The notes under the pieces: generated by a model
The model's database searches: none
Told to the model about the DNA's origin: nothing
Seen by the model: only the letters and a program-made list of their open reading frames with translations
Shown here: positions 10,302-33,355 of the stretch, in pieces
Layout of the letters: the number at the start of each line of letters is the position of its first letter
Numbering within the stretch: the first letter of the stretch is position 1
Program-made: the position numbers and the translations under genes
NCBI GenBank assembly: GCA_013152715.1
Contig: JAADFU010000206.1
Location: forward strand, 1-40,859
Source: Calditrichota bacterium
GTDB lineage: Bacteria > Zhuqueibacterota > Zhuqueibacteria > Thermofontimicrobiales > Thermofontimicrobiaceae
Reading direction: 5' to 3'
DNA: 40,859 nucleotides

Positions 10302-10466
10302 GGCAGAGCCTCTCTGATAGGGAAAAATTTTCAATTGATTTTTGCCGCGAAATCTCCGGAATTCGAAGACCGAAAATTGGGACGGAAAAACAAACTGCCT
10401 TGAGTCCCGAATAAAAACCCTTGCGTATTAGCGGTTAATTCATTGCGCTTTTCAGCCTCAAATCAT

Positions 10467-11990: not shown

Positions 11991-12036
11991 ATTTTTTGTC
12001 CTTTCCGGAAAAATAAATTGAATTTTTTTCATCAGT

Positions 12037-14622: not shown

Positions 14623-14671
14623 TTTATTCTTTTGTTTTGTGATAAAAAATGTATCGCTTGCCTGAGAAAGA

Positions 14672-14699
14672 CTTCCAAATTTTCTCTTTTATTTGGAAG
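14672..14699 (-). other. Intercistronic hairpin between GH3 and lyase genes
   Basis: CTTCCAAAT at 14672-14680 pairs perfectly with ATTTGGAAG at 14691-14699 around a 10-base loop. It lies about 75 bases after the GH3 stop and 50 before the lyase start. No strong U tract follows on the minus strand, so a processing, stability or attenuation role is as likely as termination. Confidence 0.4.
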
Positions 14700-14773
14700 C
14701 CCTGACAGTTTTGTATTTACAAAATTTTTCATAATTCTCTGAATAGCTTTTTCTATGAGAAAAAATCAGAAAA

Positions 14774-17194
14774 TTATTCGCTTACAATCTCGAATTCCCC
14801 GGACAATCTGATGTCTTCGGAAGAGGCTCCTATCATAACCCTGAAGGTTCCTGGCTCCACGACCCATTTGTAATCTCGATCGAGTAATTGCAAATCTTCG
14901 GGTTTTAAAACGAATTCGACTTTCTTTTTTTTGCCGGGTTGCAGATGAATTCTTTCAAATCCGCGCAGCGCTTTGACAAATGTGGTGACGCTGCTAACTT
15001 CGTCTCTGATGTACAATTGAACGACCTCAGTGCCTTCTCTTTCACCGGCATTTTTTATTTCGAGGCAAACCCGAATTTCGCCGGCAGGTCTTTGTTTTTG
15101 GGGCTCTATTTTTAAATTTGAATATTCAAATTGTGTGTAACTCAAACCATGCCCAAATGGGTAGAGGACGCCAGTAACGCGGCTTGTTTTATGACCGTCT
15201 TTCACGCCGGCTTGTGATCCGGGTTTAAAAGGAAAATTTAAAGGAATTTGTCCGATGGTTCTGGGGAAAGTAATGGGCAGTTTCCCCCCGGGATTGTAGT
15301 CGCCAAATAACACGTCAGCGACAGCTTTGCCCGTCATCTCGCCAGGGAACCAGGCCTCAACGATGGCGGGAATATTTTTGTCGATCCAATTTATCGTGAG
15401 GGGTCTGCCGTTTAAAAGCACCACAACCGTTGGAGTCCCTGTTGCGTGAATTGCTTTTACCAGATCAAATTGTCTGCCCGGCAAATTTAGACTTGTCCGC
15501 GACCGCGACTCGCCGACGATGAGTCTTGTCTCGCCTAAAACCACAATCGCGATGTCGCACTCGGCCGCCAGTTGAGCAGCGGAAGCAATTTTTGCCTTCT
15601 CTTCTTCGTTCAGTTCAGTGGGCAAAATTTCGCTTTCGGGCCAGTCCTTATCGATCAATGCACAGCCTTGAGCATACTTCAGTTCGCATTTTTTTCCTAA
15701 TTTATCTTTAATTCCATCGAACACAGAGATGACTTTTGCTTTGGCAGGACCGTAGCGGCTCATAAGTTCATCCGTAGCTTTGGCATTTGGTCCTACGACT
15801 AAAATTTTTTTCAAATTTTTGGATAATGGCAATAGATTTTTTTCATTTTTGAGCAAGACAATAGATTCTCTCGCTGCCCGTAAAGATACTTTAACGTGTT
15901 CGGCACAATGTACGATCTCGTCGGTTTTTTTCGGGTCCTCAAGGTACGGCTTGTCAAATAACCCCAGCCAAAATTTCACTCTCAGTACATTGCGCACGCG
16001 GCTATCGATTGTCTTCAGCGAAATTTTCCCTTCGCGCACCAATTCGCGCAAAGGATTGATGAACACATCCGGCGGCGTAAAAGTGGTTCTCACATTTAGT
16101 CCCGCTTCCACAGCCTGGCGCACAGCTTCTTTGTACGTCTCTGCTACATGGTGTTTGCTGAAAAGGTACAACACGGCGTCGCTGTCAGAGACAATGTAGC
16201 CTTTAAATCCCCAGCGTTGGCGCAAAATTTGGGTGAGAAAAAATTTGCTGCCGGTGATGGGAATTCCATTGTAGTCGTTGTACGAGCTCATCACGCCCAG
16301 GGCGTTGGCATCCTGGATCGCCGCGCGAAAGGGAGCGAGATAAATTGTCTCCACATCGCGCCAGGGGGCTTTGGGGTCTGTTCTCGCGGCGCCGTCTCTT
16401 CCGCCCTTGGGAATGCTGTAAACCGCGAAATGCTTGGGAGTAGAAACCACGCCCTCGGATTGCAATGCCGCAACCTGGATTTTACCTAATTGTGACGCCA
16501 AATAGGGATTTTCGCCGTAAGTTTCCACAGTACGTCCCCAGCGCGGATCTCGTGCGAGGTCAAGTATCGGGGAATAAATATTCGTGTAACCCAACGCTCT
16601 GGCTTCTTTTCCGGTAATGTGGCCGATGAGATTAACAAGTTCTTTATCCCAACTACTGGCAACGCCAATTTGCGCCGGAAATGAAGTCGCTTTTTCATGA
16701 CAGAGACCGCGAATGCCCTCGTTGGTGAAATCCACAGGTATGCCCAGACGGGTTTTTTCGATGAAAAATCGCTGTACTTCATTCAATGCGCGCGTATGCA
16801 TTGAATAGGGAAAAGAATAAGGCGTGCGGCACGGTTTTCGGTCCAGACCGTTCAAATGCTCGTCAATATTTGCAATTCCGTCTTTCCAGATTTCATTTAG
16901 CCACTGCTTTGTGGGGAGTTCGTCTTTGGCAACGCGGCAAAAACCGTACAAAGTCGCCATCTGGCAGGTTTTTTCTTCAAGCGTCATTCTTCCCAGCAAA
17001 TCATTGATGCGGGATTCGATATCCAGACCTGGATTTTCGTAAGGGTCCATCTTGTCATTTTTGTTGTGATCGATCCAGCCGTCGTGATAAATGGGCATTA
17101 ATTTTTCAGTTGTGATAAAAACCTGACCCATCAATCCTGACGAAAAAATTACACCTATCAGGAGAACCATTGACATCAGCGATTTTCTACTCAT
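14774..17194 (-). CDS. Secreted GH3 beta-glycosidase (BglX-type)
   Basis: An 806-residue enzyme with a signal peptide (ending near GLMGQ). Directly after it, residues 42-53 form an EF-hand-like calcium loop (D-x-N-x-N-x-K-x-D-x-x-E), as seen in many related GH3 proteins. The TIM-barrel domain contains RDPRWGRTVETYGENPYL, KHFAVYS and GYIVSDSDAV, with Asp337 as the expected nucleophile. The second domain holds LGETRLIVGESRSR, supplying the acid/base Glu, and the C-terminal Fn3-like domain ends in GASSEDIRLSGEFEI. It would release terminal beta-linked glucose, xylose or similar sugars. AAAGGA precedes the ATG; the gap to the phosphoesterase gene is 34 bases, so the two are probably cotranscribed. 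Confidence 0.92.
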   Translation of the reverse strand: MSRKSLMSMVLLIGVIFSSGLMGQVFITTEKLMPIYHDGWIDHNKNDKMDPYENPGLDIESRINDLLGRMTLEEKTCQMATLYGFCRVAKDELPTKQWLNEIWKDGIANIDEHLNGLDRKPCRTPYSFPYSMHTRALNEVQRFFIEKTRLGIPVDFTNEGIRGLCHEKATSFPAQIGVASSWDKELVNLIGHITGKEARALGYTNIYSPILDLARDPRWGRTVETYGENPYLASQLGKIQVAALQSEGVVSTPKHFAVYSIPKGGRDGAARTDPKAPWRDVETIYLAPFRAAIQDANALGVMSSYNDYNGIPITGSKFFLTQILRQRWGFKGYIVSDSDAVLYLFSKHHVAETYKEAVRQAVEAGLNVRTTFTPPDVFINPLRELVREGKISLKTIDSRVRNVLRVKFWLGLFDKPYLEDPKKTDEIVHCAEHVKVSLRAARESIVLLKNEKNLLPLSKNLKKILVVGPNAKATDELMSRYGPAKAKVISVFDGIKDKLGKKCELKYAQGCALIDKDWPESEILPTELNEEEKAKIASAAQLAAECDIAIVVLGETRLIVGESRSRTSLNLPGRQFDLVKAIHATGTPTVVVLLNGRPLTINWIDKNIPAIVEAWFPGEMTGKAVADVLFGDYNPGGKLPITFPRTIGQIPLNFPFKPGSQAGVKDGHKTSRVTGVLYPFGHGLSYTQFEYSNLKIEPQKQRPAGEIRVCLEIKNAGEREGTEVVQLYIRDEVSSVTTFVKALRGFERIHLQPGKKKKVEFVLKPEDLQLLDRDYKWVVEPGTFRVMIGASSEDIRLSGEFEIVSE

Positions 17195-17228
17195 CGGAGC
17201 AATCCTTTTCTGTTTGGCTAGTAAAAGA

Positions 17229-18479
17229 TTATCGTAACAAATTCATTTTTCGATTTCTAATTTCGGTTCCGGCTTTTAATTGGTAAAAGTAAATTCCCGA
17301 AGCAACTGGGGCGCCGTGAACATTTTCAGCGTTGAAAATAATCTGGTAGTTCCCCGGTGAATAATTTCCGTCAATCAACGTTTGCACGATTTCGCCATTC
17401 AAATTGAAAATATTTAATGTCACGGGACAAGATTGTCGGAGATGAAACCTGATGCTCGTTGACGCATTGAACGGATTGGGATAATTTTGAAATAGTTGAA
17501 AATGTGCCGGCTGAGTCCCTTCCGGAAAGCGTACCGCTGATTGCGAAGGTTTCGGATTGGGCGTGTAATATGTCTGGTCGAAAACGGTTCCGTCTTTCAA
17601 TATGTGTCTGAGTCGCAGGGTATCGCCGGAAAAAGTGAGCTCTGTATAGCCATATTGGGCAATGTATTTTGCCACCATATAGCCGTTTCCGTCTTCGTTG
17701 GGATTGACTGAATATAAGGGAGCACCGCCATTGCCGGTGACGATTTGCGGTATTCCTTTCAGCGAATCCAACGGCGGATTTTTTTGACCATTTAATAGCA
17801 ATTTTTTCGTTCGCACATAATAGTGAGCGTGACCGTTGAAAATAAGATCGCATCCGTTCTGATAAAGCGGCACGCCCCAAGTCTGGTGGATTTCTTGCTC
17901 GTAATGTTTGGGTCCAAAATCAAAAATGGGGTGATGCCAGACAAGGATGAGCCATTTTTGTGGGTTATTTTCAATCGCATTCTTCATCATGGTAAATTGA
18001 GGACCATCAATCGGAGATTTGTCAGAGTCCAAAAGAATAAACCGTGCATCTTCATAATCAAAATAAAAATATTTACCGTCATTACCGTACAAATTTTTCT
18101 GTCCCGGCAGGTAAGTATTCCAATTTGCCAATCCGGAAGATGTCTCAGTATTGTCGTGATTGCCCGGTACAGCCATATATTTTGGCGGCGTTTGATCCTG
18201 TCCGGTTCCGCCTAAAACATCATCACATGCGCGCTGCCATGTGTCCCATAGACTTTTGACTGTCCCGTCTGACACAACATCGCCGACATTGATGATGAAT
18301 TTGTAATTTGGAGTATTATTCATTATTGCTTGCAATACTTGACGATGATCATTGTCATGACTCCTGGTATCTCCGTAGATGATGCATTGCCAGGGTTGCG
18401 CAAAAATACGGGTCACACTAAATAGAAATAAAACAAAAGTCAACTTGAAAATTCCTTTTGAACTTTTTTGCTTGTTCAT
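17229..18479 (-). CDS. Secreted calcineurin-like metallophosphoesterase with sorting domain
   Basis: A 416-residue protein with a signal peptide ending near RIFAQ. Metal-binding motifs occur in order: GDTR (36-39), GDVVSDG (66-72), GNHD (106-109), WHHP and NGHAHYY. GDxR in place of the common GDxH at the first motif is also seen in purple-acid-phosphatase-like proteins. The C-terminus carries QNYPNPFNA at about residue 333 and the same kind of sorting domain as its neighbours. The start at 18479 has AAGGGAAC upstream and begins a clean signal peptide; the open frame continues to 18683 but that part lacks a start signal. It is first in the degradative gene set. It may remove phosphate from a decorated glycan or scavenge phosphate; neither can be shown here. 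Confidence 0.85.
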   Translation of the reverse strand: MNKQKSSKGIFKLTFVLFLFSVTRIFAQPWQCIIYGDTRSHDNDHRQVLQAIMNNTPNYKFIINVGDVVSDGTVKSLWDTWQRACDDVLGGTGQDQTPPKYMAVPGNHDNTETSSGLANWNTYLPGQKNLYGNDGKYFYFDYEDARFILLDSDKSPIDGPQFTMMKNAIENNPQKWLILVWHHPIFDFGPKHYEQEIHQTWGVPLYQNGCDLIFNGHAHYYVRTKKLLLNGQKNPPLDSLKGIPQIVTGNGGAPLYSVNPNEDGNGYMVAKYIAQYGYTELTFSGDTLRLRHILKDGTVFDQTYYTPNPKPSQSAVRFPEGTQPAHFQLFQNYPNPFNASTSIRFHLRQSCPVTLNIFNLNGEIVQTLIDGNYSPGNYQIIFNAENVHGAPVASGIYFYQLKAGTEIRNRKMNLLR

Positions 18480-18847
18480 GATGTTCCCTTCAATGTGAAA
18501 GAAATGAATAATATCATTAAAAATAAATTTCCGGTGAAAGCAGGGGCGCTTTGATTTGGAATATGAAAAAAACGATATTGTAAAAAAAAAAGCGCTAACC
18601 AGCAATATTAATAAATCTTGCTCCGTTTTTCGTATTATCGAAAATATCAGGACTTCACTGAATGAGTTAAATTTGTGCCGCAAAATTACCCGTTGTAGAG
18701 ATTTATTTGTTTTTTTTTATTGTGCTAATATTATTATCTGATTTAATCGTTGAATGAGACGTTGAAAAAAATGTCGCTGATTATAAAGTCAGGGAGAGAG
18801 GAATATTTTTCCTTCTCTCCCTGGTACGCTGCTGTAAGAGGACAAAA
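18480..18847. other. Intergenic region between the two halves of the locus
   Basis: This 368-base gap is AT-rich. Its left end serves as leader of the phosphoesterase gene and its right end holds the hairpin at 18790-18823. I see no convincing gene and no promoter matching the TTGCAT/TATATT pattern, although a separate promoter for the downstream genes is expected here. Confidence 0.5.
18790..18823 (-). terminator. Strong hairpin after the beta-helix gene
   Basis: Left arm 18790-18803 and right arm 18809-18823 pair over 14 bases with one bulged base (18813) and a five-base loop. It begins 25 bases after the stop of the 18848-21127 gene. The minus-strand tail is ACTTTATAATC, so the U tract is poor. 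It probably ends or weakens transcription of the receptor half of the locus. Confidence 0.6.
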
Positions 18848-21127
18848 TTACTGCAGTAAAATCATTTTCTTAACGCTTAAAAAGTTGTCAGTTTTTAAAC
18901 GATAGAAATATATTCCGCCGGGCACAGGTTTGTTATTTTTGTCCTTTCCATCCCAGTGGACAATATAGCGATTCGGCATCTGAAATTGATTAACCAGAGC
19001 AATGACTTTCTGTCCCAGAATATTGTAAATCGTTAAATTTACCAGCGCTGGCTTGGAAATTCCGTAAGAGATTGATGTCCCCGGATTAAATGGATTGGGA
19101 TAATTTTGGGACAGATAGAATGAGTTGGGTGTGGTTTGATTCACCGACACACCGGTTTGTTCCCAGGTTCCCCAGCGCGGATCGCCTAAGTTGCTTTCGT
19201 CAGATGCCATTCCGACAGCAGGTCCATTGACTTCAACGGCCAAATTCAGCGTCGAATCCTCTATACTCTTAAACAACGGATCATCTTCCAGGTTGAAAAT
19301 CGGAAAGGTGAGTTCCGGATGATCTTCTGATTTTATCAGCGTGTCGCATTCCCAGAAAAGATTGTACTCGACAGTGGGAGAGGGTCCAAAAACGCGAACG
19401 CCGAATGCATCCTGTTGGTAGAAGATATTATCTCGAATCGTGACTACCGTATCGTCTCGGGCGTAAACTCCCACATTTCCTGTGCGTTCGGAAATTGTGC
19501 TGTCATTCCAGCAGAAAGTACAATGGGAAACTTCTAATTCACCCACATTTCGCAGGTAAATTCCTTTTTGTCCCACGCGATAGAATGTGCAATTGGCGAT
19601 TTTGGCAAATTCAATATTTCGGGCGGCGTCTTTGCCGTAGATGCCGGTTTCTCCGACATTTCGGAAAATGCAATTATTCACAATCAGCGTATCTGTGTGG
19701 TTCTTCTTGTCCATGTGCAAAGCGCGCAGCCGGAAACCTTCAAACTCACAATCTTCAATAATGCAGGTGCCAAATTCCTCGCTTCCCGCATCCCAGCGAA
19801 GTCCGTAGGGAGTTCCGCCGTCAACGATACCATCGCCTCTAAACCGAAGACCTTTGATGGTTATCGGCGCATAGATTTTCATGATTCGAGAGCTGCCAAA
19901 CGCTGCGGTCAACGTGGGTTTTTCTCCCAACCCCGGTTTTGCCATCAAAACCAGCGGAAATTTTTTCATCGAGACATCTTTGGGATTGTAATATTCGCCG
20001 CCATCAGAGACGAATACGAGCGTGTCATTTTCAGTGAGAGCATCCTCGATGAGTCGTTCCCAGTCTTTATTTTTCACCAGTTCCCATTTTGTAATTTCGC
20101 TGGCATCCCAGGTGCCATTATTGGCATCGCCCAGCGCTGTGGAGTCATCAGCAAAAAGTGCCGCCGGAGAATTGGCAGCAACGGCAAAATTGCCGGCTTC
20201 GGCATCCGCAAAGTAGGGATTTTGATCTCTTAAAAGCAGGTCATAGTCATAACTGGCTCCCTCTTTTTTGCTGATATGCTTCGGACACTGAAATGACAGA
20301 AAATGTTCTACTTTGGAATTGGTACCGTAAATTCGGCAAGCGTATTCATCTGTGGCGCTGAAAGCCACGATTGAATTTTTGATCATCGCGCCGTCGATCT
20401 CTTTGGGATAGATGCTTTTGCTTCCCGCTTTTACTATTGTGATATGATTTGCAATAAAAACCGGATCCGGCGTGCCATCGGAAACGTGGTCATGAGCCTG
20501 CACATAAATTGCTTCATCTCCAATGTCCCAGAGAGTAGTATTTTCAATCCGAAAATACTTCACCGAACCCGGCGCTACCGACGGAGATTTAAAACGCACT
20601 GCTTCTTGCAGAATATGTGCAAAATAACAATTGCTAATAATAACGGTGTCAGCTTGAGTATTTGCATCACCGTAAATTGCATGGCCATCGTCGCCAACAT
20701 TGAAATTGACGAATTCGCAATTATTGATTTTCAGTTTGTAACCCCATTTCACCAGCGAACTGTCTGGCGTGTCAATGCCTTTTGCGGTAAGTGAATCTCC
20801 CAGAGAACCATCGAAAATGATACCGTCCAGGGTAAGATCGTCGCGAATGTCGATTATTTTGCTGCTGTTATCGGTGTACCAGACGGGCTTATTCGTTAAT
20901 CCTTTTGCGGCGCGGATTGTGATTGGCATGTCGATTATTGTGACAAAAGTCTCATGATACATGCCGCCGTCCGTAATTAATTCCAGCGTATCTCCTGGCG
21001 AGGCAGTATAAAGCGCGTTATCGATCTGGTCGTCTCCCGCAGGCACCTGAATTACTGATTGCCCGAAAAGAGCGGACACTGAGAAAATCATGAGAAAAAA
21101 AATTGTAACAAAGAGCTTGCTTTTCAT
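18848..21127 (-). CDS. Secreted right-handed parallel beta-helix protein, internally duplicated, with sorting domain
   Basis: A 759-residue protein with a signal peptide (ending FGQ, residue 23). Residues 26-343 and 349-656 are two copies of one module. Each starts with a DTLxxxxDGGxY segment, continues with ITI-LxFxG and several NCxF or NCIF rungs, and ends with a closing unit (ALGDANNGTWD and NLGDPRWGTWE). Such helices are found in polysaccharide lyases of the pectate-lyase and chondroitinase B type and in glycan-binding surface proteins. I cannot identify catalytic residues, so binding or lyase activity remains open. The sorting domain starts at QNYPNPFNP (about 674-682). AAGGAG precedes the ATG. 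It closes the receptor half of the locus. Confidence 0.85.
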   Translation of the reverse strand: MKSKLFVTIFFLMIFSVSALFGQSVIQVPAGDDQIDNALYTASPGDTLELITDGGMYHETFVTIIDMPITIRAAKGLTNKPVWYTDNSSKIIDIRDDLTLDGIIFDGSLGDSLTAKGIDTPDSSLVKWGYKLKINNCEFVNFNVGDDGHAIYGDANTQADTVIISNCYFAHILQEAVRFKSPSVAPGSVKYFRIENTTLWDIGDEAIYVQAHDHVSDGTPDPVFIANHITIVKAGSKSIYPKEIDGAMIKNSIVAFSATDEYACRIYGTNSKVEHFLSFQCPKHISKKEGASYDYDLLLRDQNPYFADAEAGNFAVAANSPAALFADDSTALGDANNGTWDASEITKWELVKNKDWERLIEDALTENDTLVFVSDGGEYYNPKDVSMKKFPLVLMAKPGLGEKPTLTAAFGSSRIMKIYAPITIKGLRFRGDGIVDGGTPYGLRWDAGSEEFGTCIIEDCEFEGFRLRALHMDKKNHTDTLIVNNCIFRNVGETGIYGKDAARNIEFAKIANCTFYRVGQKGIYLRNVGELEVSHCTFCWNDSTISERTGNVGVYARDDTVVTIRDNIFYQQDAFGVRVFGPSPTVEYNLFWECDTLIKSEDHPELTFPIFNLEDDPLFKSIEDSTLNLAVEVNGPAVGMASDESNLGDPRWGTWEQTGVSVNQTTPNSFYLSQNYPNPFNPGTSISYGISKPALVNLTIYNILGQKVIALVNQFQMPNRYIVHWDGKDKNNKPVPGGIYFYRLKTDNFLSVKKMILLQ

Positions 21128-21285
21128 CTTTCTCTCCTTTTCTAAATTTTAATGATTAAAAATGATTTTTGGTACCGATGGATGCAGATTCCCCGCTACG
21201 AATCAAGCGATGGGAAAACCTTGTAACTTGAGAAAGAATATCATTCTTTTTTAAAAGCCAACATCACCTCCTCACTAATATTTTG

Positions 21286-22824
21286 CTATTGCTTCCCAGT
21301 TTTAAAGATAAAATTATAATCGGTTTCAAAGGAATTCCCATGAATATCCGCCGCGCCGAAAGAAGGCCGTAATGTTTCTTTGTCTTTTTCAAATGTGCCA
21401 ATTATTTTTACCTGAAATCCTGTTGATGGCAGCAATAGTTTTTCGGGAGAAAATGTCATTTTGGTGGCTTTGGGATTCGGATCTACCGGCGGGTCGCCCT
21501 TTTTTCCATTTGCGTACCAGGCAGCTAATGCACGCTCATAAATGTACGGAAAAATAATCGTCGTGTCCAATGTCGTTGCGTCCAACATGCCGCTGACAAG
21601 AGTGGAATCCTGCCAATCGTCGAACTGAAAAGTTCCATTCACATAAAGCGCATCTAAAGGTAAATTATTTTTTTCCTCCCAGACACCGGCAAATTGCTGA
21701 CTTCTGAAGACGCCGCTGTTCGTTGCAGCAAAAAGTTGTTCCGGATTCTGTGGATTTATCGCCAATGCCACCACATTTACACCTGCCGGGATTTGTTCGG
21801 ATTGCGTCCAGGAAGTACCGCCATCATTACTGTGGTAAAATCCTTGACCAGTGTTTACGATAATTCTCCCGGTGTCCTGAGGATCAAAAGCAAAAGCATT
21901 AATGTCAAGGTTGGGAAGACCTTCCACGATTAATTCCCAATTGTCTCCGGAATCATGGCTCCGATAAATTCCTCCGCCGTCTGAAACTGCAAATACGCGG
22001 GAAGTATCCGCAGGATGAACGGCGATTTTATTGAAATAATAGGTAAAAAATCCCTTGCGGATGCGCGTCCATTTCTCTCCGCCATTATACGATTTCAGAA
22101 TAAAATCTCCTTTGGTAGCCAGATAGATTATTTGGGGATTCAGCGGATTAATGGCAATATCTTGCGGCGGCCTGCTGACGCGAACGCCATCATTTTTCGC
22201 TTCCCAATTTTGGCCGCTGTCGGTAGATTTATAAATGCCGTCTTTTTCGGTCGCAACAAATAGCACATTTCCATTTGTCGGATCAATCGCCAACGCAAGC
22301 GGATTTTCAGCGGGCAGCGCTATTTTTTCCCAATTCAAACCACTATCGTTGCTGCGATACAAACCACTGTCATGGCTTACCGCGTACAGTAAATTGGAAT
22401 TGCCCGGAGAAATGATAATTTGACTCAGATTCATTTTCATGCTGAGTGGCGTCAACCAGGTCCATGATTCTCCGCCATCTTCGCTTTTAAAAATTCCCTG
22501 AGTTTTTCGTGAGACATAGATTATTTGCGGATTATTTTTGTCGATAGTAATTGTTTGAAGCGAATCGAAACTCACTTTGGGCCAAAGCCTGAAATTTTTT
22601 TCCACAGACGCGGTGTTCATAAGTTCGTCAAACCAGATAGTAATTTTGGCATCTCGGGGAATATTTTTGGCATTTGAAAGCGGATCATGGTATGCCACCG
22701 CAGGTCTTCTGACATCAGGAGCTTCAAAATCCGGTTTTGTTGGTTCTCTTTCCGGGAAGCAACTCCAGATAATTATCACTAAAAGCGAGAGTACAAATGT
22801 ATTAGCTAAAATTTTTAACTTCAT
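21286..22824 (-). CDS. Surface lipoprotein: BNR beta-propeller inserted in a Big_5-like domain
   Basis: A 512-residue protein with a lipoprotein signal ending at Cys22. Residues 45-85 look like the first half of a bacterial Ig-like Big_5 domain (DPLSNAKNIPRDAKITIWFD, then MNTASVEKNFRL). Residues 88-385 hold seven units of about 43 residues with the BNR/sortilin motif: DGGESW, DSGLNW, DSGQNW, NGGEKW, DSGDNW, DGGTSW and one decayed copy near 380. Residues 395-510 resume the Ig-like pattern (NGTFQF, then MTFSPEKLLLPSTGFQVKIIG and DYNFIFKTG). It would sit in the outer membrane, probably facing out, and could bind glycan or partner proteins. No enzyme signature is seen. GGGAGAGG precedes the ATG. 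It is tightly linked to the PorV-like gene (10-base gap). Confidence 0.8.
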   Translation of the reverse strand: MKLKILANTFVLSLLVIIIWSCFPEREPTKPDFEAPDVRRPAVAYHDPLSNAKNIPRDAKITIWFDELMNTASVEKNFRLWPKVSFDSLQTITIDKNNPQIIYVSRKTQGIFKSEDGGESWTWLTPLSMKMNLSQIIISPGNSNLLYAVSHDSGLYRSNDSGLNWEKIALPAENPLALAIDPTNGNVLFVATEKDGIYKSTDSGQNWEAKNDGVRVSRPPQDIAINPLNPQIIYLATKGDFILKSYNGGEKWTRIRKGFFTYYFNKIAVHPADTSRVFAVSDGGGIYRSHDSGDNWELIVEGLPNLDINAFAFDPQDTGRIIVNTGQGFYHSNDGGTSWTQSEQIPAGVNVVALAINPQNPEQLFAATNSGVFRSQQFAGVWEEKNNLPLDALYVNGTFQFDDWQDSTLVSGMLDATTLDTTIIFPYIYERALAAWYANGKKGDPPVDPNPKATKMTFSPEKLLLPSTGFQVKIIGTFEKDKETLRPSFGAADIHGNSFETDYNFIFKTGKQ

Positions 22825-22834
22825 GGCCTCTCCC

Positions 22835-23845
22835 TCAGAATGTTAGGATGATCGAAAAGGTCTGTACATTATTTAAAATTTGATAATCATTATAAGCATA
22901 ATCCAATTTCATGGCAAATTTTCGTAGTAATTGAAAATCAAAACCAGCGCCCACCGACAAACCGGCCTGACTGTCATTAAAGCGATAGCCGGAGCGAAGC
23001 GTTAACATTTTTTTAATGCAAATTTCTCCGCCGGTAGCGATGCGATGGATGAAATCGCGGGAGTCCATTAATTCGGAAGAAAATGTCAGGCGAAAATTAT
23101 CAGCGTTGACGATGTCAGTTGCCACCCCAAAACGGAATAACAATGGAATGTCCCAGGGGTCGGTCAAAAGTTCAGCACGGGAATATTTAATGCTGGGATC
23201 TTCCAGGTGTTGAACGATGAGATCGGTTCCGTGCAATTGCATCCGTCCGCCCAGATTGGAAAGCGCAAATCCAAGCCGCATATTATTGAAAAAATCAGTG
23301 ATAAAAATACTCCCAATGTCGATAGCGACAGTACGCGCGGTTTCCCGATCCAGCCGCTCAGAAATATATTTTATTGTCAAACCAGCAGAAAAACGATTGG
23401 TAAGTTGTCTTGAAAAAGTGAGTCCCGCGGCAAAATTAGAAGCGTCAAATTGTCTGCCGGTTCCTTCTGGCTCCCAGATTGTTGTTTCTGCCATTTGCCC
23501 GGATGAAAAAGTGTAAATGTGAAAGCCAAAATTGCCAATTTGGGGCAGACGATATGAAGTGGCAAGATAGAATAGTTTGGTATCCAAAAGCCAATTGGTT
23601 GTCTGAAAATAAAGTTGGTTGTTCGTTAAAAATCCCAGTCCGCCGGGGTTCCAGTAGGTCGCTGTGACGTCATTCGCTAATGCGACGTAGGCGCTTCCCA
23701 TGCCCAGAGCTCTGCCGCCCACGCCGATTTTCAAAAAATTCGCCATCGAAGTGCCCGTTTGATTGAGCGAAGAAGTCTGAGCAATTGACAAATTAACTGA
23801 AGCGACCGTAATTAGTAAAACAGTGATTATAATTTTGGGCTTCAT
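22835..23845 (-). CDS. PorV/PorQ-family outer-membrane protein
   Basis: A 336-residue beta-barrel protein with a signal peptide (ending SIAQ). The N-terminal MANFLKIGVGGRALGMGSAYVALANDVTATYWNPGGLG region is the PorV/PorQ hallmark (positions about 33-66), followed by alternating strands and an aromatic C-terminal strand (FSIILTF). In FCB bacteria PorV acts at the outer membrane in type IX secretion, and related members are scattered next to surface-protein genes. Its place among proteins with C-terminal sorting domains suggests a role in their export or surface attachment. AAGGGGA precedes the ATG. Confidence 0.85.
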   Translation of the reverse strand: MKPKIIITVLLITVASVNLSIAQTSSLNQTGTSMANFLKIGVGGRALGMGSAYVALANDVTATYWNPGGLGFLTNNQLYFQTTNWLLDTKLFYLATSYRLPQIGNFGFHIYTFSSGQMAETTIWEPEGTGRQFDASNFAAGLTFSRQLTNRFSAGLTIKYISERLDRETARTVAIDIGSIFITDFFNNMRLGFALSNLGGRMQLHGTDLIVQHLEDPSIKYSRAELLTDPWDIPLLFRFGVATDIVNADNFRLTFSSELMDSRDFIHRIATGGEICIKKMLTLRSGYRFNDSQAGLSVGAGFDFQLLRKFAMKLDYAYNDYQILNNVQTFSIILTF

Positions 23846-23950
23846 CTTTATCCCCTTTTATTTTAAACGCTCAAATTTTTATCGAGAAACGCTACCATTG
23901 CAAATTTGATTACTCAATTTTTTGAACCAGTTGATCATATTGTTTTTAAT

Positions 23951-26302
23951 TTACTTAATGACAACGAATTTACCTGTTTTGTCGCCAAGTTCAGATTCAA
24001 TGTGGAAAAAGTACAAACCAGGAGCCACTTCACGGTTTTCGTCGCTGCGAAGGTTCCATTGTTCCTCGGAGGCGATCGGCGAAGTTGAGCCATGGTAAAG
24101 TGTCACGATGAGTTCTCCTGCCATATTAAAGATTCGAATGGTGCAAGTTTCCGGCAGATGAGTAAACTTCAGCATTCTCTCTCTGACCGCGGTTTCCTGA
24201 GGATTAATCACGCGATAGGGATTGGGCACAACTTTAATTAACTCGAGATCATTTTTCGTTGAAGCTTCGGGAGCGTGAGGCGTCACATTTACGACGTTGA
24301 CTCCCGAAGTTCGGGCATTTTGCAACGGCTGAAGTCCGTCCGGCGTGTCGTCACCCGCGCCGTAGGCGACAACGGCATAAGTGTAAGAAAAACCGTTAAG
24401 AACAGATTCGTCCACAAAAACATATTTTAGAGTGTCAGTAATATTTTTCCCCAATTCTTTGACGAAAATTTCGCGCACAGAGTCTTGTTCCGCCAGAATC
24501 AGATCAAAACCATTGTCATTTCCGCGATTGAAAGTTGGCAGCACCGGAGAAGCGCCGGTAATCCCGTTGGGAACATCGTACTGCGCTAATGGTACGTAAT
24601 CAATGGTGGTGCCATTTTCATCAGTAATGGGAACAGCGCCCCAGCTTTTACCGCCATCGTCGCTGCGGAAAATTTTGTACCCTTCAAATTTTTGTCTGCC
24701 AAATATCTGGTTCAGCGAATCGTTCTCGCTGATCGTCCCCCAGCGCAAAGTAATTTTACCGCTCTCCACTTTTACCAAAACATTTGGCGGAAAGGGTGGT
24801 TTCGGGACAACCCAGCCATTCTTGAAGATTTTTCTTGCTGTCTTTGCATTTTTGAATAAATCAGCTCGACTTTCGCCCATGACCGTGGCGCAGATGAGCG
24901 TGTCCGTTTCTCCCGGCTCCAGACGAAAAGGTCCGGTATTGATTGTCATGGCACAGCGATGACCATTGTCGTATAAAGTTTCGGATCCCACGGGAAAAGG
25001 ATGTTCCCATGTCCAATTATCAATATGGTCGCCATCCGCGTCGTCGGGATCTGTGCCCTGACCATACTGTCCGGTATTTACGACATTCAACCAATAAAAT
25101 CTTGCGAGGCTATTCCCGATTCCTTGAACCTCTCCTTTGATTGTCGCTCCAAATGCATCCCAACTCGTTATACCCAATTCTTTTCCTGTCAACGTATCTT
25201 TTGGCGTCTGCAAAAAGATGACCCCGGCAAGAGCAACTTTATCTACCGGCGTTTCGTCCGTCAATTTGGCTTTTTCATAAGGCCAATTTCCAAATGTTGC
25301 GCCGGTAATATCGCCGTCTCCGTCCCAACCATAACCAATTTTTAGCTCTTCGCCGGTTTCTTCATCAATATCGTACGTATCAAATGCAAACGCGTCGACT
25401 TTATCGTAGGTGTGATATTCTTGAAAACTTGCCCACGGAAAATCGAAATCGGCAAACATGCCCAGGTACGTGCTGTCAATGGGTTCAGTGCCAATATTGG
25501 TGACCGTGAAAGTCCAATAAAGAAAATCTTCAGCTAAATCTCCCTTCCAACTCAAGCTGCGTAGAATTGTATAGACCATCAAATGGCCAGTAGCCTGATC
25601 ATCATCCCTGTTTTTGGCAAACGAGGCTGTGAATGCTTCCTGGTCTGCGACAACCTGCCCTGGGTAATACAGACCAGGCGCAGAATATTTATTCGGACCA
25701 GCGCCAGGAAAACCGGTTAGTGTGTCTAATAAAAGAGGGATTGGCGTGGCGATTCCCTGATTGTAAACAGTCGGATAATTGGGATTCACTCGCTGAAGCA
25801 CAGGATCAGTAGTCGGATAGGTAGCGGGCCAACCGTCGGAAGGCCAACTCGTGCTATCGTCGCTTACAGCGATGGGATCTGTGCTCGAAGGCGCGCTGTA
25901 ATCCGGAAGTCCGTCAAAATGGAATCCCTTGTAAAAACGATAACTTGCCTGGTCTCCGCTTTCCACTAAAGGGTTTAATAATCTATTGGGATCATGGTCC
26001 CAAACGGGGCCCCGATCCGAACAAAATCCCCCGACATGAAACGAAATTCCGACAGCGTAGTAAATATGCCTGCCATTTGGGTCCGGATTGTAAGGATATT
26101 CAAAAGCAGGAAATTTTGCTAATTCCGGATATTTCAATCGCCCTGAACCAATATTGTTGGTATTGGACATTTTGGTGACTAATTTACCTGCTCCAAAATT
26201 GCCCCATCTTTCCCATTCCAATCTTTGCTGTCCTTGCAAAAATTGGATCGAGCTAAAAGTGAAAATCAGAATTAAAAAGAAGATTACAATTTTTTTTGAC
26301 AT
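23951..26302 (-). CDS. Large secreted protein of unknown function next to the TonB receptor
   Basis: A 783-residue protein with a signal peptide (ending near FLQGQ). I do not recognise a catalytic domain. The first 500 residues are beta-rich, with a calcium-loop-like DPDDADGDHIDNW near 420. A fibronectin III-like module follows (PPFPPNVLVKVESGKITLRW to EGYKIFRSDDGGKSW). The end has VPNPYR and a strand-rich tail closing in KTGKFVVIK, a variant of the sorting domain. The gene lies 92 bases after the TonB receptor, with GAGGAG before the ATG. In Bacteroidetes this place would hold SusD; this protein has no SusD features, but its constant position suggests it may be the receptor's surface partner. 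That is inference only. Confidence 0.7.
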   Translation of the reverse strand: MSKKIVIFFLILIFTFSSIQFLQGQQRLEWERWGNFGAGKLVTKMSNTNNIGSGRLKYPELAKFPAFEYPYNPDPNGRHIYYAVGISFHVGGFCSDRGPVWDHDPNRLLNPLVESGDQASYRFYKGFHFDGLPDYSAPSSTDPIAVSDDSTSWPSDGWPATYPTTDPVLQRVNPNYPTVYNQGIATPIPLLLDTLTGFPGAGPNKYSAPGLYYPGQVVADQEAFTASFAKNRDDDQATGHLMVYTILRSLSWKGDLAEDFLYWTFTVTNIGTEPIDSTYLGMFADFDFPWASFQEYHTYDKVDAFAFDTYDIDEETGEELKIGYGWDGDGDITGATFGNWPYEKAKLTDETPVDKVALAGVIFLQTPKDTLTGKELGITSWDAFGATIKGEVQGIGNSLARFYWLNVVNTGQYGQGTDPDDADGDHIDNWTWEHPFPVGSETLYDNGHRCAMTINTGPFRLEPGETDTLICATVMGESRADLFKNAKTARKIFKNGWVVPKPPFPPNVLVKVESGKITLRWGTISENDSLNQIFGRQKFEGYKIFRSDDGGKSWGAVPITDENGTTIDYVPLAQYDVPNGITGASPVLPTFNRGNDNGFDLILAEQDSVREIFVKELGKNITDTLKYVFVDESVLNGFSYTYAVVAYGAGDDTPDGLQPLQNARTSGVNVVNVTPHAPEASTKNDLELIKVVPNPYRVINPQETAVRERMLKFTHLPETCTIRIFNMAGELIVTLYHGSTSPIASEEQWNLRSDENREVAPGLYFFHIESELGDKTGKFVVIK

Positions 26303-26394: not shown

Positions 26395-29016
26395 TTAGAA
26401 TTCAATTCTAAATCCGATTTGAACTCTCCTTCTATCTGATATGTAACGGGGATTAGCGTCATGCGCGTATGGCGTACCCGGATCGCCGTCATCATTCCAC
26501 TTCCCGGTCACTGAATAGACATAATTGATATTTCGGCGGTTAAGTAAATTGTAAATTTTTAAAAAGATTGTCTCTTTGAGATCAAAAAATCTAAAATATT
26601 TGTTCATTCTCAAATCAAAGTTCATGTACCAGGGCATACGCTCGGTATTCTTTTGTTCAGCCATAACTGTGTAGGGTCTGCCAGATTTAATAGCGCTTTT
26701 CAAACTGATTGCCCAATTTCGAGGCTTACTCACTAACACCAATGCGGAAAGATCGTGCGTTCTGTCCCAATTCGCCAGAAAGCTCCGGTACGCAATGGGA
26801 GCCGTCGATACTGTTTGAGCTGCCGTCAGGGGACTCGATGTACTTATGAGAGTTTGAGACAACGTGTAATTTATTCGCGCAGAGAAAGAATTGCTAAATC
26901 TTTTGTCTAAAGTGAGCTCAAGCCCTTTCGAATTACCAAAGTCAACATTGTCAAAATAGACATAACCGGCAGTTTGAATCCAGGTAACCCCAACAAGATC
27001 GGCTAATTCGCGATAGTAGGCGGTTACGTTTAATGAAACATTTTCCATGAGTTGTGTCTGCACACCTGCTTCGTAAGTTACTGATTTCTCTGGCCTAATG
27101 TTGGGATTAAAAATGGCAAGGCCGACATCCTGAAGATTGGGCCGATCGGGATATTGACCTTTTTCATTGATCCCGGAGAGCAAATCCACATAGCTGGGAA
27201 ATTGGTAGAAATGACCATAGGCAAAATGGAAAGCCGCTTTTTCGGAGATAGGAAAGGAAATGCCCAATCTCGGGCTGAATCTATTTTTCGGATTTGTCGG
27301 CCGCAGCGGTGTTTCCATGGGGCGCTCCGGATCTTCCATGTAGCGTTCGCCGATGCTCCATCTTTCCCAGCGAAAACCCAGGTTCAAAATCATTCCCAGA
27401 CTTTCAAATTCCATTTTATCCTGTAAAAAAGCAGCCCATTCAATGGGACGACTGTCCGAATATGCTTTGTGGGATTCAAACGTCTCCTTGATCAGTTCGC
27501 CTTGCTCATTAGCACCTTTTACAATTTGATCGACCGGCGTGTCCCATGCTAAATCCAACCGGTGAAACAGATCCATATATCTCAAATTGATTCCGCCTTT
27601 TAACAAATGAAGAGGGGTGACCTGGCTGGTGATGTTGAAATTCAACTGATAGGTATTCGTCGTATCTGCCCAGAAATCATTTCTGGCGCCAGAATAATAG
27701 AAACCATAAGTCGGTTCGCTTAATCTGGAGCCCATCACTATTCGTTGTTCGCGCGTCTTGTCTACACCCATCCAATAATCAATTCGTTGGTACGAAGCTG
27801 TTAAATCATAAAAAGTTTTGGGGTTTAATTGATGAGTAATTTTCAGCGTTAGGTCTAGTTCTTTCGTGTCGCTCCAGGGCATGCCATAGGGAAGATATTT
27901 GTAAGCATGATAGTATTTCACTTTTCTCACGCTGGACATGACAAAATCAGTCATTATTTTTAAAGCGGGCGTGACTTTCCAGGTCAATTTTTGTAGAGTA
28001 TGCCATTCATCTTTCCAATCAGCGGACACTTTTTTGCCCAGGGGGTTTCCGTTTTCATCTTCAAGCGGCAATTTCCCTTTGCTATCGGTCCAGCCTGGAA
28101 TGATATAAGCGTAAAAACGACCGTCGGTGGAGCGAATCTGAGCATTGCTATAAAATGTCAGGTTTTTGTAAAAGGGCATAGGGCCGCTGAAGGAGTATTC
28201 TCCCTGAAAAGTATTTCTATCGTACGCTTTAATGCCAAAATTATCTGTGTATCCGCTGACTCTCCCGCTGTAATTTTCTTTTCCTTCTTTAGTCACAAGA
28301 TTAATCACACCGGACATTTTTCCGCCATATTCAGCATTGAACGTACCTAAAATAGTCGAAATTTCATTTATTGTTGTACCGGATGAATTTTGTGCATAAC
28401 CGGCGCCGCCCCAGATCGGATTGTCTACTCTGACACCATCTACTAAAAAGACGGTCTCATTTTCTCTGCCGCCGCGGATGTGCAAGCCATCTCCCGGAGC
28501 ATCGCGAATGACGCCGGCGCGTTCGGTGAGCTCGATGGGCGAGACGCCAGCTTGAATTTCCAATAGTTGGGGCAGATTATCAATGGGCGCACTTTGAATA
28601 TCGTGATCCCCGAAAGTTTGCAGGCTGGATGTGAGGTCTTTCTGAATCGGGGGCCGCTCCGCGACGATCGTGACTTCCTGTCCTTCAAGGATAGTTTGTT
28701 TTAAACGGAAACTGACTCTCGTCGTAATATCTGAACTCACTTGAACGTTCGTTTGCGTCATTGTTTCATAGCCAATCATTGAAGCTTTGACTGAGTATAT
28801 TCCGGGTGGCACGTTGATGACGTAGTAATTACCCTGAATGTCTGTCGCTGCGCCCAGAGTTGTCCCTTCAATCATAATATTGACGCCTGGTAATGGATTG
28901 CCACTTTCCGCATCAACTACTTGACCAGAAATTTTTCCGGTGATTCCGGCTTGCGAAACTGCATTCCAGATGAAAAAAATTAGAATAGCCAATTTCACAA
29001 AAAGCTTGGATTGCAT
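26395..29016 (-). CDS. TonB-dependent receptor with carboxypeptidase-regulatory-like N-terminus
   Basis: An 873-residue outer-membrane transporter. After the signal peptide, residues 27-112 form a CarboxypepD_reg-like domain (GKISGQVVDAESGNPLPGVNI through MIGYETMT), then a plug domain with LHIRGGRENETVFLVDGVRVD around residues 175-200, then a beta-barrel of about 620 residues ending in an aromatic strand (VQIGFRIEF). It would import oligosaccharides or another bulky ligand using TonB energy. It lacks the size of classic SusC proteins (about 1000 residues) and no SusD gene follows. GAGGAG precedes the ATG. It is the first gene of the receptor half of the locus, divergent from a membrane-bound regulator. 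Confidence 0.92.
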   Translation of the reverse strand: MQSKLFVKLAILIFFIWNAVSQAGITGKISGQVVDAESGNPLPGVNIMIEGTTLGAATDIQGNYYVINVPPGIYSVKASMIGYETMTQTNVQVSSDITTRVSFRLKQTILEGQEVTIVAERPPIQKDLTSSLQTFGDHDIQSAPIDNLPQLLEIQAGVSPIELTERAGVIRDAPGDGLHIRGGRENETVFLVDGVRVDNPIWGGAGYAQNSSGTTINEISTILGTFNAEYGGKMSGVINLVTKEGKENYSGRVSGYTDNFGIKAYDRNTFQGEYSFSGPMPFYKNLTFYSNAQIRSTDGRFYAYIIPGWTDSKGKLPLEDENGNPLGKKVSADWKDEWHTLQKLTWKVTPALKIMTDFVMSSVRKVKYYHAYKYLPYGMPWSDTKELDLTLKITHQLNPKTFYDLTASYQRIDYWMGVDKTREQRIVMGSRLSEPTYGFYYSGARNDFWADTTNTYQLNFNITSQVTPLHLLKGGINLRYMDLFHRLDLAWDTPVDQIVKGANEQGELIKETFESHKAYSDSRPIEWAAFLQDKMEFESLGMILNLGFRWERWSIGERYMEDPERPMETPLRPTNPKNRFSPRLGISFPISEKAAFHFAYGHFYQFPSYVDLLSGINEKGQYPDRPNLQDVGLAIFNPNIRPEKSVTYEAGVQTQLMENVSLNVTAYYRELADLVGVTWIQTAGYVYFDNVDFGNSKGLELTLDKRFSNSFSARINYTLSQTLISTSSPLTAAQTVSTAPIAYRSFLANWDRTHDLSALVLVSKPRNWAISLKSAIKSGRPYTVMAEQKNTERMPWYMNFDLRMNKYFRFFDLKETIFLKIYNLLNRRNINYVYSVTGKWNDDGDPGTPYAHDANPRYISDRRRVQIGFRIEF

Positions 29017-29232
29017 TTTAGTCTCCTCTAAAAATTGAATGTATTTGCAAAAAAACAGGCAATTAGAAATTTTTTGCTTTATCAGAACTAAAGAGAAAGA
29101 TTTTGCAAGTCAGGGTATTCATAATTTACATCTGTGAATGGTTCTGGCGTAAATGTTTTTTGGGGAAGAACAGAAAAATAAATATTTCTTTGATCATTTG
29201 GTTTAATATAACACATATAATTTTTATTGCAA

Positions 29233-29262
29233 GGTAATTACCGTTAACAACGCGTTATTAAC
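29233..29262. promoter_or_regulatory. Two abutting palindromes in the divergent promoter region
   Basis: GGTAATTACC (29233-29242) is a perfect palindrome. It is directly followed by GTTAACAACGCGTTATTAAC (29243-29262), a 20-base palindrome with one mismatched pair. They end eight bases before the -35 hexamer at 29270. The rest of the 330-base gap (29017-29346) is AT-rich and I see nothing else certain in it; no promoter for the receptor gene stands out. Confidence 0.5.
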
Positions 29263-29269
29263 ATTCTCC

Positions 29270-29298
29270 TTGCATTTTAAATCAATTTGACTTATATT
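29270..29298 (+). promoter_or_regulatory. Promoter of the membrane-anchored regulator gene
   Basis: TTGCAT at 29270-29275 and TATATT at 29293-29298 are separated by 17 bases, which leaves about 40 bases to the start codon at 29347. The same hexamers and spacing occur before the TetR gene. Confidence 0.55.
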
Positions 29299-29346
29299 AT
29301 ATCAAATCTGTAACTTTTATTTGATAACCCCTACCAGAAAAAGTCG

Positions 29347-30558
29347 ATGATAAGCAAAATGAAAAAAAAAGCATCTATCGACAGGATCCTTCAAAGTGAA
29401 GAGTTCAAAGATTCCCCTACTTATAAAGAACTTCTTCAGTACCTGTACGAGTATTCTCTTACTGGCGCGCCTCCCAAGGAGTCAACGATTGCCGCTGAAT
29501 TTTTCAAAAGCAAAGATTTGAATACAGAAAGAGACGCTAAAGTCCGCGTCTATATGCACAATTTGCGAAAGAAATTAGATTCGTATTATCTTAATGAGGG
29601 AAAAGATGACAAAATAAAAATTACCATACCAAAGGGACATTATCTTCTGGAATTTGCGACCAGAGAACCGGCAAAACGCAAACGTCGGCTATTACAATTT
29701 ATCATTGCTAATGTTCTCATTGTGGGACTGTTGATAATTATAAATCTCATTTATTTGTCTCATCAAAAAAAGCAAGCGGCTGTTACCAATGGGGAATTGA
29801 TAAAAAATGATTTAATTTGGGGCGATTTTTTCAACAGCGATAAACAAACTTTGCTCGTCTTCGGGGATTATTTTTTGTATAAAGACACTGTGAGCGTTTC
29901 ACATTTTTTTATCAGAAACCCGCGTATCAATTCCCGTGAGGATTTTCAGAAATTTATCTTTGAAAATCCTGAATACAACAAGCGTTTCAATGAAGCTGAG
30001 CTGACATTCCTTGGGAAACATGCGGTTTGGTGTTTGGAGAAAATTCTTCGTTTGTACATTTTAACGAATCAAAAATTCAAACTGAAGCTGGCATCTCATC
30101 TTCAGTGGGAAGATTTTCAAAATAACAACATCATTTTTGTCGGCAGTTTTAAGACGTTGCGAATTATGAGAAATTACATGAAACAGGTAAATTTTCACTA
30201 TCGCGTCTTCCCCAATACGCTGTATTATTATGACAATCATCTGGATTCCACATTTGCTTACCATGCGCCGAGAGAATCACAGACTGGCCATGTGACAGAT
30301 TATGCGCTGGTAACTAAACTGCCCGGTCCGAAGGGGAATGTGATTATGACTTTTTCCTCGACTCACGATATTGGTCACATTTCCGTGGTACAGTCTTTTA
30401 CAAATAATTCATTTTTGCAAAAGATTGAACAAGAACACAAATTTGTGAAGAACAACGTGAAATTTTTTGAGGCCGTTTTTGAAGTCACAGGTTTTGAAAG
30501 AACAGGATTTCGATCAAGTTTGCTGCATTTTAATCGTATCTCGGCTGGGAATGAATAG
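29347..30558 (+). CDS. Membrane-anchored winged-helix regulator (ToxR-like layout)
   Basis: A 403-residue protein. Residues 15-105 resemble the winged-helix domain found at the N-terminus of many adenylate-cyclase-like and TPR regulators: a DSPTYKELLQYLYEYSL helix, ESTIAAEFFKSKDLN, VRVYMHNLRKKLDSYY, then the wing KIKITIPKGHYLLEF. A basic stretch (KRKRR) and one hydrophobic segment (about 115-138) follow, so the 265-residue C-terminal domain would be periplasmic; I do not recognise its family. This is the design of one-component membrane regulators such as ToxR and CadC. It is divergent from the TonB receptor gene, with palindromes between, so it probably senses a periplasmic signal and controls the locus. 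An internal ATG at residue 5 is an alternative start; neither has a strong ribosome-binding site. Confidence 0.75.
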   Translation: MISKMKKKASIDRILQSEEFKDSPTYKELLQYLYEYSLTGAPPKESTIAAEFFKSKDLNTERDAKVRVYMHNLRKKLDSYYLNEGKDDKIKITIPKGHYLLEFATREPAKRKRRLLQFIIANVLIVGLLIIINLIYLSHQKKQAAVTNGELIKNDLIWGDFFNSDKQTLLVFGDYFLYKDTVSVSHFFIRNPRINSREDFQKFIFENPEYNKRFNEAELTFLGKHAVWCLEKILRLYILTNQKFKLKLASHLQWEDFQNNNIIFVGSFKTLRIMRNYMKQVNFHYRVFPNTLYYYDNHLDSTFAYHAPRESQTGHVTDYALVTKLPGPKGNVIMTFSSTHDIGHISVVQSFTNNSFLQKIEQEHKFVKNNVKFFEAVFEVTGFERTGFRSSLLHFNRISAGNE

Positions 30559-32983: not shown

Positions 32984-33355
32984 ATGCGCTCGGTAGTAAA
33001 AAAATTCAAAGCTCTTTCTGACCCGAACAGAATTCGCATACTAAAAATGCTTGAGCAAAAGCAATTAGCTGTCAGTGAGATTACTTTTGTTCTTGGCCTT
33101 TTAACATCGACGGTCTCCCAACACCTGTCGCTTTTACGGGATTGGGGATTCATTCAGGATGTCAAAGAGGGCAAGTGGGTGATTTATCATTTAGATAAAA
33201 AAGAGATGAATGAAAGTTGTCGAGAGCTCTTCTTTCTGGTCAGCCGCGGGACAGAGAATTTGAATGTCATTCATCAGGATGCTGAAAAATTGAAAAAGAC
33301 AAATCTGTTTGATTTATGCAAAGGACACGCAAAAGAGCAGAAAGGGATTTTATGA
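32984..33355 (+). CDS. ArsR-family winged-helix repressor
   Basis: A 123-residue regulator. The ArsR domain covers residues 3-75: LSDPNRIRILKML, then the recognition helix in TSTVSQHLSLLRDWGFI and the wing GKWVIYHLD. The metal-binding ELCVCDL of classic arsenic sensors reads QLAVSEI here, so the alpha-3 site is absent. Two cysteines remain outside it, Cys79 and Cys112, and might form another site. AAGGGAAG precedes the ATG. Its stop overlaps the start of the arsenate reductase gene (ATGA), so the pair is an operon. Confidence 0.9.
   Translation: MRSVVKKFKALSDPNRIRILKMLEQKQLAVSEITFVLGLLTSTVSQHLSLLRDWGFIQDVKEGKWVIYHLDKKEMNESCRELFFLVSRGTENLNVIHQDAEKLKKTNLFDLCKGHAKEQKGIL

Follow-up and report, generated by a model that had tools for sequence, protein, structure and literature searches.

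The gene at positions 29347-30558 of the window (the whole stretch of 40,859 nucleotides of Calditrichota DNA analysed here) probably encodes a ToxR/CadC-like one-component activator, which would act PhoB-style at the -35 region and switch a divergent TonB/glycan operon in response to a signal sensed outside the cytoplasm. It belongs to a family of membrane-anchored winged-helix proteins that share one architecture; most are encoded divergently to TonB receptors and other, mostly glycan-linked, genes, and most have in their promoters a tandem-repeat motif at a fixed placement relative to the -10 box. A ToxR-like one-component control of this glycan locus had been proposed in an earlier note on the same DNA, and it is supported here by the architecture, the divergent linkage and the operator motif (the DNA binding itself being predicted).

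Architecture of the probable regulator

The open reading frame begins with ATG and encodes 403 amino acids, divided as follows:

29347..30558, + strand: membrane-anchored winged-helix regulator, 403 residues (open reading frame; homologues in 36 of 82 genomes of the source phylum)
29347..29661, + strand: cytoplasmic winged-helix domain, residues 1-105, with a recognition-type helix at 60-84 and a wing at 90-103 (Trans_reg_C matches, AF2 model, conservation)
29680..29775, + strand: one transmembrane helix that spans about residues 112-143, with its hydrophobic core at 119-137 (hydropathy; helix 112-143 in the model)
29788..30555, + strand: periplasmic alpha/beta sensor domain, residues 148-403, of no known family (no Pfam, NCBIfam or PDB sequence match; conservation; AF2 model of moderate confidence)

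In the window protein, the N-terminal domain matches Trans_reg_C (PF00486) weakly, with 14.9-15.9 bits (E 0.014 at 15.9 bits) against a gathering cut-off of 26.2 bits, and therefore lies below the score required for curated membership of that family. The same profile is matched by 63 of 72 homologues at E<=1 (best E 7.6e-6), and no other family recurred among the 72. Profile matches of the winged helix to the PDB were weak (ArlR/RpaA, E 0.14-0.66). Two AF2 predictions were made, with two sequences each, and gave mean pLDDT values of 61.8 and 54.3. The model with pLDDT 61.8 consists of a winged-helix N-terminal domain, a low-confidence linker (residues 105-117), a long membrane helix (112-143) and an alpha/beta periplasmic domain. 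The helices predicted in its N-terminal domain (24-37, 45-52 and 60-84) are followed by a hairpin (90-93/100-103), mostly at pLDDT 60-85, and we regard this modelled helix-helix-helix-wing arrangement as credible.

The segment at residues 119-137 (hydropathy 2.74) is the sole strong membrane segment of the window protein, and all 73 full-length family proteins have one such segment between their two domains. Lysine and arginine are commoner before it in 48 of these 73 proteins and after it in eight (with 17 ties), a bias that fits an N-terminus placed inside. The family thus has the layout by which ToxR/CadC-like regulators are recognised, namely a single transmembrane helix between the DNA-binding and sensor domains, with the N-terminus inside. 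Additionally, no kinase, receiver, sigma or anti-sigma domain was matched in the window protein by Pfam or NCBIfam.

The earlier note had read the gene as a winged helix joined through one membrane segment to a periplasmic domain of no recognised family, and had named the lack of a DNA-binding surface in a predicted structure as evidence against it. The architecture is borne out, both in the window and throughout the family. A DNA-binding surface is kept in the predicted helices and wing hairpin, where R67, R74, G85 and G97 (as well as G266 in the periplasmic domain) are invariant among the 72 aligned members and K76 and K96 nearly so. The absence of a known family also holds for the periplasmic part (about 255 residues, alpha/beta in the AF2 model at moderate confidence), which matched nothing in Pfam, NCBIfam and PDB sequence searches, nor in a PDB profile search with the sensor domain. 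Within it, W158, G173, D318, G327 and F374 are conserved in at least 90% of the 72 members. Foldseek searches with the first model gave BcsB (E 0.03) and alpha-glucuronidase (E 0.4), neither significant and both to be taken as leads only, and with the second model nothing coherent; owing to the low pLDDT and the insignificant Foldseek matches, we dropped the assignment of a fold to this domain, which is a candidate for a new ligand-binding fold.

Family and genomic setting

In the 36 genomes of the source phylum that have homologues, these are mostly full-length, and one genome has as many as 13. Outside the phylum, about 306 further genomes were searched; a full-length member was present in one of them (G135), and the winged helix alone in two. 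Two members also occur in an Acidobacterial genome, each of them divergent to a TonB receptor. The source genome (4.15 Mb) has two genes with the family type of winged helix at E<=0.001, which are the window gene and a paralogue 30% identical to it, both divergent to a TonB receptor. One of the two genes outside the phylum that have the winged helix alone (L112:5858-7543, - strand) comes from another phylum and has a TPR-like C-terminal part fused to that helix, so that this type of winged helix is common to other architectures. Some homologues (in L090, L105, L098 and L067) are split, truncated or interrupted by an internal stop, and some loci have two members, which is consistent with a birth and decay of paralogues.

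Upstream of the window gene, and across an intergenic gap of 330 bp, lie the following features:

26395..29016, - strand: TonB-dependent receptor, predicted first target gene (CarbopepD_reg_2, Plug and TonB beta-barrel domains, Pfam)
7752..26302, - strand: co-directional glycan block behind the receptor, nine genes (Pfam)

The block encodes a 783-aa protein of no family, a PorV-like protein, a Vps10/BNR protein, a beta-helix protein (DUF4957/DUF5123), a phosphoesterase, a GH3 enzyme, a heparinase II/III, a sulfatase and a Melibiase-type enzyme, several of them with secretion-type C-terminal tails. We infer that all nine genes are under the promoter of the receptor and, because of the enzymes encoded, the locus looks like one that serves a sulfated or uronic-acid-rich glycan.

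The neighbourhood survey covers the 70 members whose contig includes, upstream of them, a gene of at least 150 aa. The family gene is divergent to that upstream gene in 62 of the 70 (related members and not independent events, but drawn from more than 30 genomes and as little as 22-25% identical to the window protein); the immediate upstream gene is a TonB receptor in 31, and a receptor is found among the first four divergent genes in 45. The TonB Plug domain occurs 33 times in the whole source genome, in about 1% of its genes, so that chance would be expected to give about one or fewer immediate receptor neighbours. The divergence from the receptor stated in the earlier note is upheld, and the survey shows the gene to be conserved beside such loci, the lack of which the note had named as evidence against its reading. 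The Bacteroidetes setting assumed there has to be given up. The source phylum is a different one (with 82 genomes in the set searched), and a profile search for SusD_RagB, positive in a Bacteroides control genome, found no match in the source genome. The locus has a TonB receptor and glycan enzymes, without the SusC/SusD pair that marks a polysaccharide utilization locus of Bacteroidota.

Most of the remaining immediate divergent genes that were tested encode glycan enzymes or are otherwise linked to glycans, namely several GH2 genes, alginate lyase, GH88, GH66-like, GH28, GH30, GH62, sulfatase, DUF4861, CBM9 and a LacI-type sugar-binding protein. Neighbours of other kinds are a PPIase (PPIase and TonB in L075/L079) and proteins without a family. 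The second and third divergent genes are rich in secretion sorting tails, and include some GH28 and beta-helix proteins.

Three further features of these loci were observed. The beta-helix protein of the window (18848-21127, - strand; DUF4957/DUF5123 with a secretion tail) has counterparts beside the TonB receptor in many of the loci (L071, L074, L077, L091, L098 and L086), and may be a usual surface partner where SusD is missing; the window copy has 55 phmmer matches, some probably through the tail alone. A protein of 690-783 aa without a family, followed by a PorV-like barrel, recurs behind the receptor in the window (22835-26302, - strand) and in L038, L039, L062 and L096. Elsewhere in the window (32984-33771, + strand), and as read by eye, an ArsR-like winged-helix gene, unrelated to the regulator, overlaps a gene resembling low-molecular-weight phosphatases/arsenate reductases.

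A predicted operator at the -35 of the divergent operon

A de novo EM search of 73 family promoters yielded a motif of three tandem 10-11 bp repeats of the GTTATTAAC type, with the consensus ttttAAC.tgTaaTTaAC.GTTATTaACTTg. At width 20 its log-likelihood was 293.6, compared with at most 95.4 in shuffled promoters, and the self-identity of the repeats was 0.47 and 0.41 at shifts of 10 and 11 versus 0.21-0.32 at other shifts. The corresponding elements of the window are:

29230..29260, - strand: predicted operator TAATAACGCGTTGTTAACGGTAATTACCTTG, in which three tandem 10-11 bp repeats point toward the TonB operon (EM motif, 28.3 bits; hold-out)
29205..29232, - strand: predicted promoter for the TonB operon, TTGCAA-16 nt-TATATT, where the -10 is preceded by TG (promoter scan; family-wide -10 offset)
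29270..29298, + strand: possible promoter of the regulator, TTGCAT-17-TATATT (by eye; absent from the list of the promoter scan)

For the hold-out by genome, the motif was trained on half of the genomes and scored on the other half with a threshold of at least 14 bits. It was found in 48% and 60% of the held-out promoters, whereas control intergenic regions taken from these loci had it in 1.6% and 1.1% of cases (P values of 8e-11 and 4e-14); the test promoters are somewhat longer than the controls, and their dinucleotide-matched shuffles give 0.3-0.5%. Of the 45 sites with at least 18 bits in 927 kb of loci, 43 are found in the 1 kb that precedes a family gene, a count obtained with a matrix trained on the same promoters, the hold-out being the clean test. 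Sites of at least 15 bits are present in 51 of the 73 promoters, 45 of them pointing toward the divergent operon, and are absent from 22 (about 30%); near the genes of the Acidobacterial and G135 relatives, no site was found at the thresholds used. Within the source genome, the operator pattern of the window occurs at 29243-29262 only, and that of the paralogue, searched without mismatch, at the paralogue only. Taken together, the sequence comparisons make a strong case that the regulator would bind the repeats.

Two other lines were abandoned. A LacI-type palindrome had been considered as the operator, but the alignment of the 73 promoters shows tandem 10-11 bp repeats, and the palindromic look is mostly incidental. 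A covariation between operator and protein (Mantel r 0.45) was discarded, since it is confounded by ancestry and the periplasmic domain is equally correlated (r 0.53). Separately, two strong operator sites lie off the usual place, L086:8908 (+) and L089:2484 (-), with 19.5 and 22.7 bits; the first is directly downstream of the regulator and ahead of the next genes, which suggests that it marks a second target.

The -35 of the TonB operon promoter begins within the last three bases (TTG) of the predicted operator. In a separate promoter scan of 28980-29380 this promoter is the one promoter-like site, where 2.2 are expected by chance, and for this reason we give weight to its position relative to the operator alone. 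Throughout the family, a -10-like box that lies outside the motif peaks 20 bases past it (mean score 0.1 versus a maximum of -1.4 in 500 shuffles), which places the last three bases of the motif (TTG) at the start of the -35. Because the motif includes part of the -35, this fixed distance says less about activation than if the site stood apart from the promoter. The family promoters have in this respect the layout of a PhoB-like class II promoter, with tandem repeats of about 11 bp overlapping the -35 at a fixed distance from the -10. The possible promoter of the regulator sits about 10 bp past the operator.

Proposed mechanism and alternatives

We propose that the regulator is a one-component transcription activator anchored in the inner membrane, whose periplasmic alpha/beta domain would sense a signal from its own locus, the likeliest being a glycan breakdown product imported via the divergent TonB receptor. 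This signal would alter the dimerisation or conformation of the protein across its one membrane helix. In the cytoplasm, the winged helices, sitting in tandem on the three repeats that reach the -35, would bring RNA polymerase to the TonB/glycan operon in the way known for PhoB at class II sites. The promoters without a site, the sub-cut-off Trans_reg_C score and the members beside non-glycan genes count against this proposal.

Concerning the signal, only the linkage and the number of paralogues point to a glycan fragment, which we put forward as the ligand with moderate to weak confidence. The regulator might instead sense the status of the envelope or of the transporter (receptor abundance, redox or pH), which would leave the DNA side of the mechanism as it stands and would suit both the members paired with non-glycan operons and a periplasmic domain that has no fold or sequence link to sugar binding (BcsB at E 0.03, alpha-glucuronidase at E 0.4). 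We consider this rather unlikely, since the paralogues of a single genome (up to 13) lie in many cases by different enzyme sets, suggesting many specific ligands and not one general stress.

Concerning the DNA, a 10-11 bp period, a tandem orientation and a position at the -35 are typical of OmpR/PhoB winged helices activating class II promoters, and these properties of the repeats, together with the invariant basic helix, lead us to read the family as tandem winged-helix activators. We hold with moderate confidence that the regulator activates rather than represses, because of the fixed phase to the -10 and the poor -35 boxes. A repressor, whose bound repeats would cover the -35 and block the polymerase until a periplasmic signal released the protein, is unlikely: the operator does overlap the -35, and the -35 hexamers exceed the random expectation (a mean of 3.0 matches in six versus 1.6, with four or five matches in 11 of 43), but most of them are poor (three matches or fewer in 32 of 43), the -10 keeps a fixed phase and the repeats run in one orientation. 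Poor -35 boxes, a fixed-phase -10 and one-way tandem repeats form the pattern of activator-dependent promoters of the PhoB type.

By analogy with ToxR, CadC and TfoS, the proposed activator would act while bound to the membrane. Its winged helix could also be freed by proteolysis and act as a soluble factor, again compatible with the DNA side of the mechanism, given that regulated proteolysis is known for this regulator class (PMC7593790) and that the linker ahead of the membrane helix (105-117) is predicted with low confidence; CadC and TfoS, however, are reported to act as membrane-bound proteins (PMC6320335, PMC11856585), and we judge release to be highly unlikely. Finally, it is very improbable indeed that the repeats are bound by some other factor (LacI-type or ECF sigma) and that the membrane protein senses only or is incidental, for although a LacI-like periplasmic-binding-fold gene adjoins the family gene in three loci (L056, L072 and L096) and the repeat pair of the window is nearly palindromic, the family gene is the only gene common to all sites, the control intergenic regions of the same loci are without the motif, tandem 10-11 bp repeats are a site type of OmpR/PhoB winged helices and not of LacI, and the family has an invariant basic recognition helix.

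Significance

The proposed activator follows a known, ToxR-like control logic. What appears to be undescribed is its sensor domain, its dedicated linkage to TonB/glycan loci, its lineage and its operator of three phased repeats; a search of the open-access literature (most subscription journals being outside its scope) found no family of membrane winged-helix regulators at TonB/glycan loci. We tentatively suggest, as a possibility that we would not yet call probable, that these proteins form a dedicated class of glycan-locus regulators that has not been described before. This class would be ToxR-like and one-component, would sense oligosaccharides through a new periplasmic fold, and would have expanded to as many as 13 paralogues per genome, each insulated by its own variant of the triple repeat, in a phylum that may lack SusD (as judged from one genome).

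Little has been published on how bacteria outside Bacteroidota control their glycan uptake. For about 50 loci, the operator, its orientation and the promoter are here predicted base by base, so that a single small domain and a DNA of 31 bp would suffice to test the control logic. If the predictions are true, the presence of the regulator marks a TonB/glycan operon and the operator marks where that operon starts, making substrate-specific loci in uncultured phyla easier to find.

Comparison with known systems

The family resembles ToxR/CadC-like regulators in its single membrane helix, which lies between a predicted N-terminal winged helix and a putative periplasmic sensor. It differs from them in a far diverged winged helix, in a periplasmic domain that matches nothing known, in its ties to TonB/glycan operons of a small phylum and in three phased repeats that end at the -35. 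For ToxR, binding to a direct repeat element has been reported (Goss 2013, as cited in PMC8517210); CadC uses AT-rich sites, for which a head-to-head arrangement has been proposed (PMC5430869).

TfoS and ChiS of Vibrio cholerae are membrane-anchored regulators of the chitin response that bind promoters directly (PMC11856585). Membrane anchoring is common to them and to the family, for which promoter binding and an answer to a polysaccharide are predicted; in contrast, no placement divergent to TonB receptors is described for TfoS/ChiS. The DNA-binding and sensor domains of TfoS and ChiS also differ from those of the family.

Like SusR, the hybrid two-component systems and the ECF sigma/anti-sigma pairs of Bacteroidota, the family would control a TonB-receptor glycan locus locally, in answer to what happens outside the cytoplasm, but none of the domains of those systems is present in the 403-aa one-component protein. 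Compared with the pho box of PhoB/OmpR regulators, the family protein is without a receiver, and its repeats are of the GTTATTAAC type with a mixed spacing of 10 and 11 bp; the common trait is that, in both, a promoter that is (or, in the family, is predicted to be) activated has tandem repeats of about 11 bp in place of its -35.
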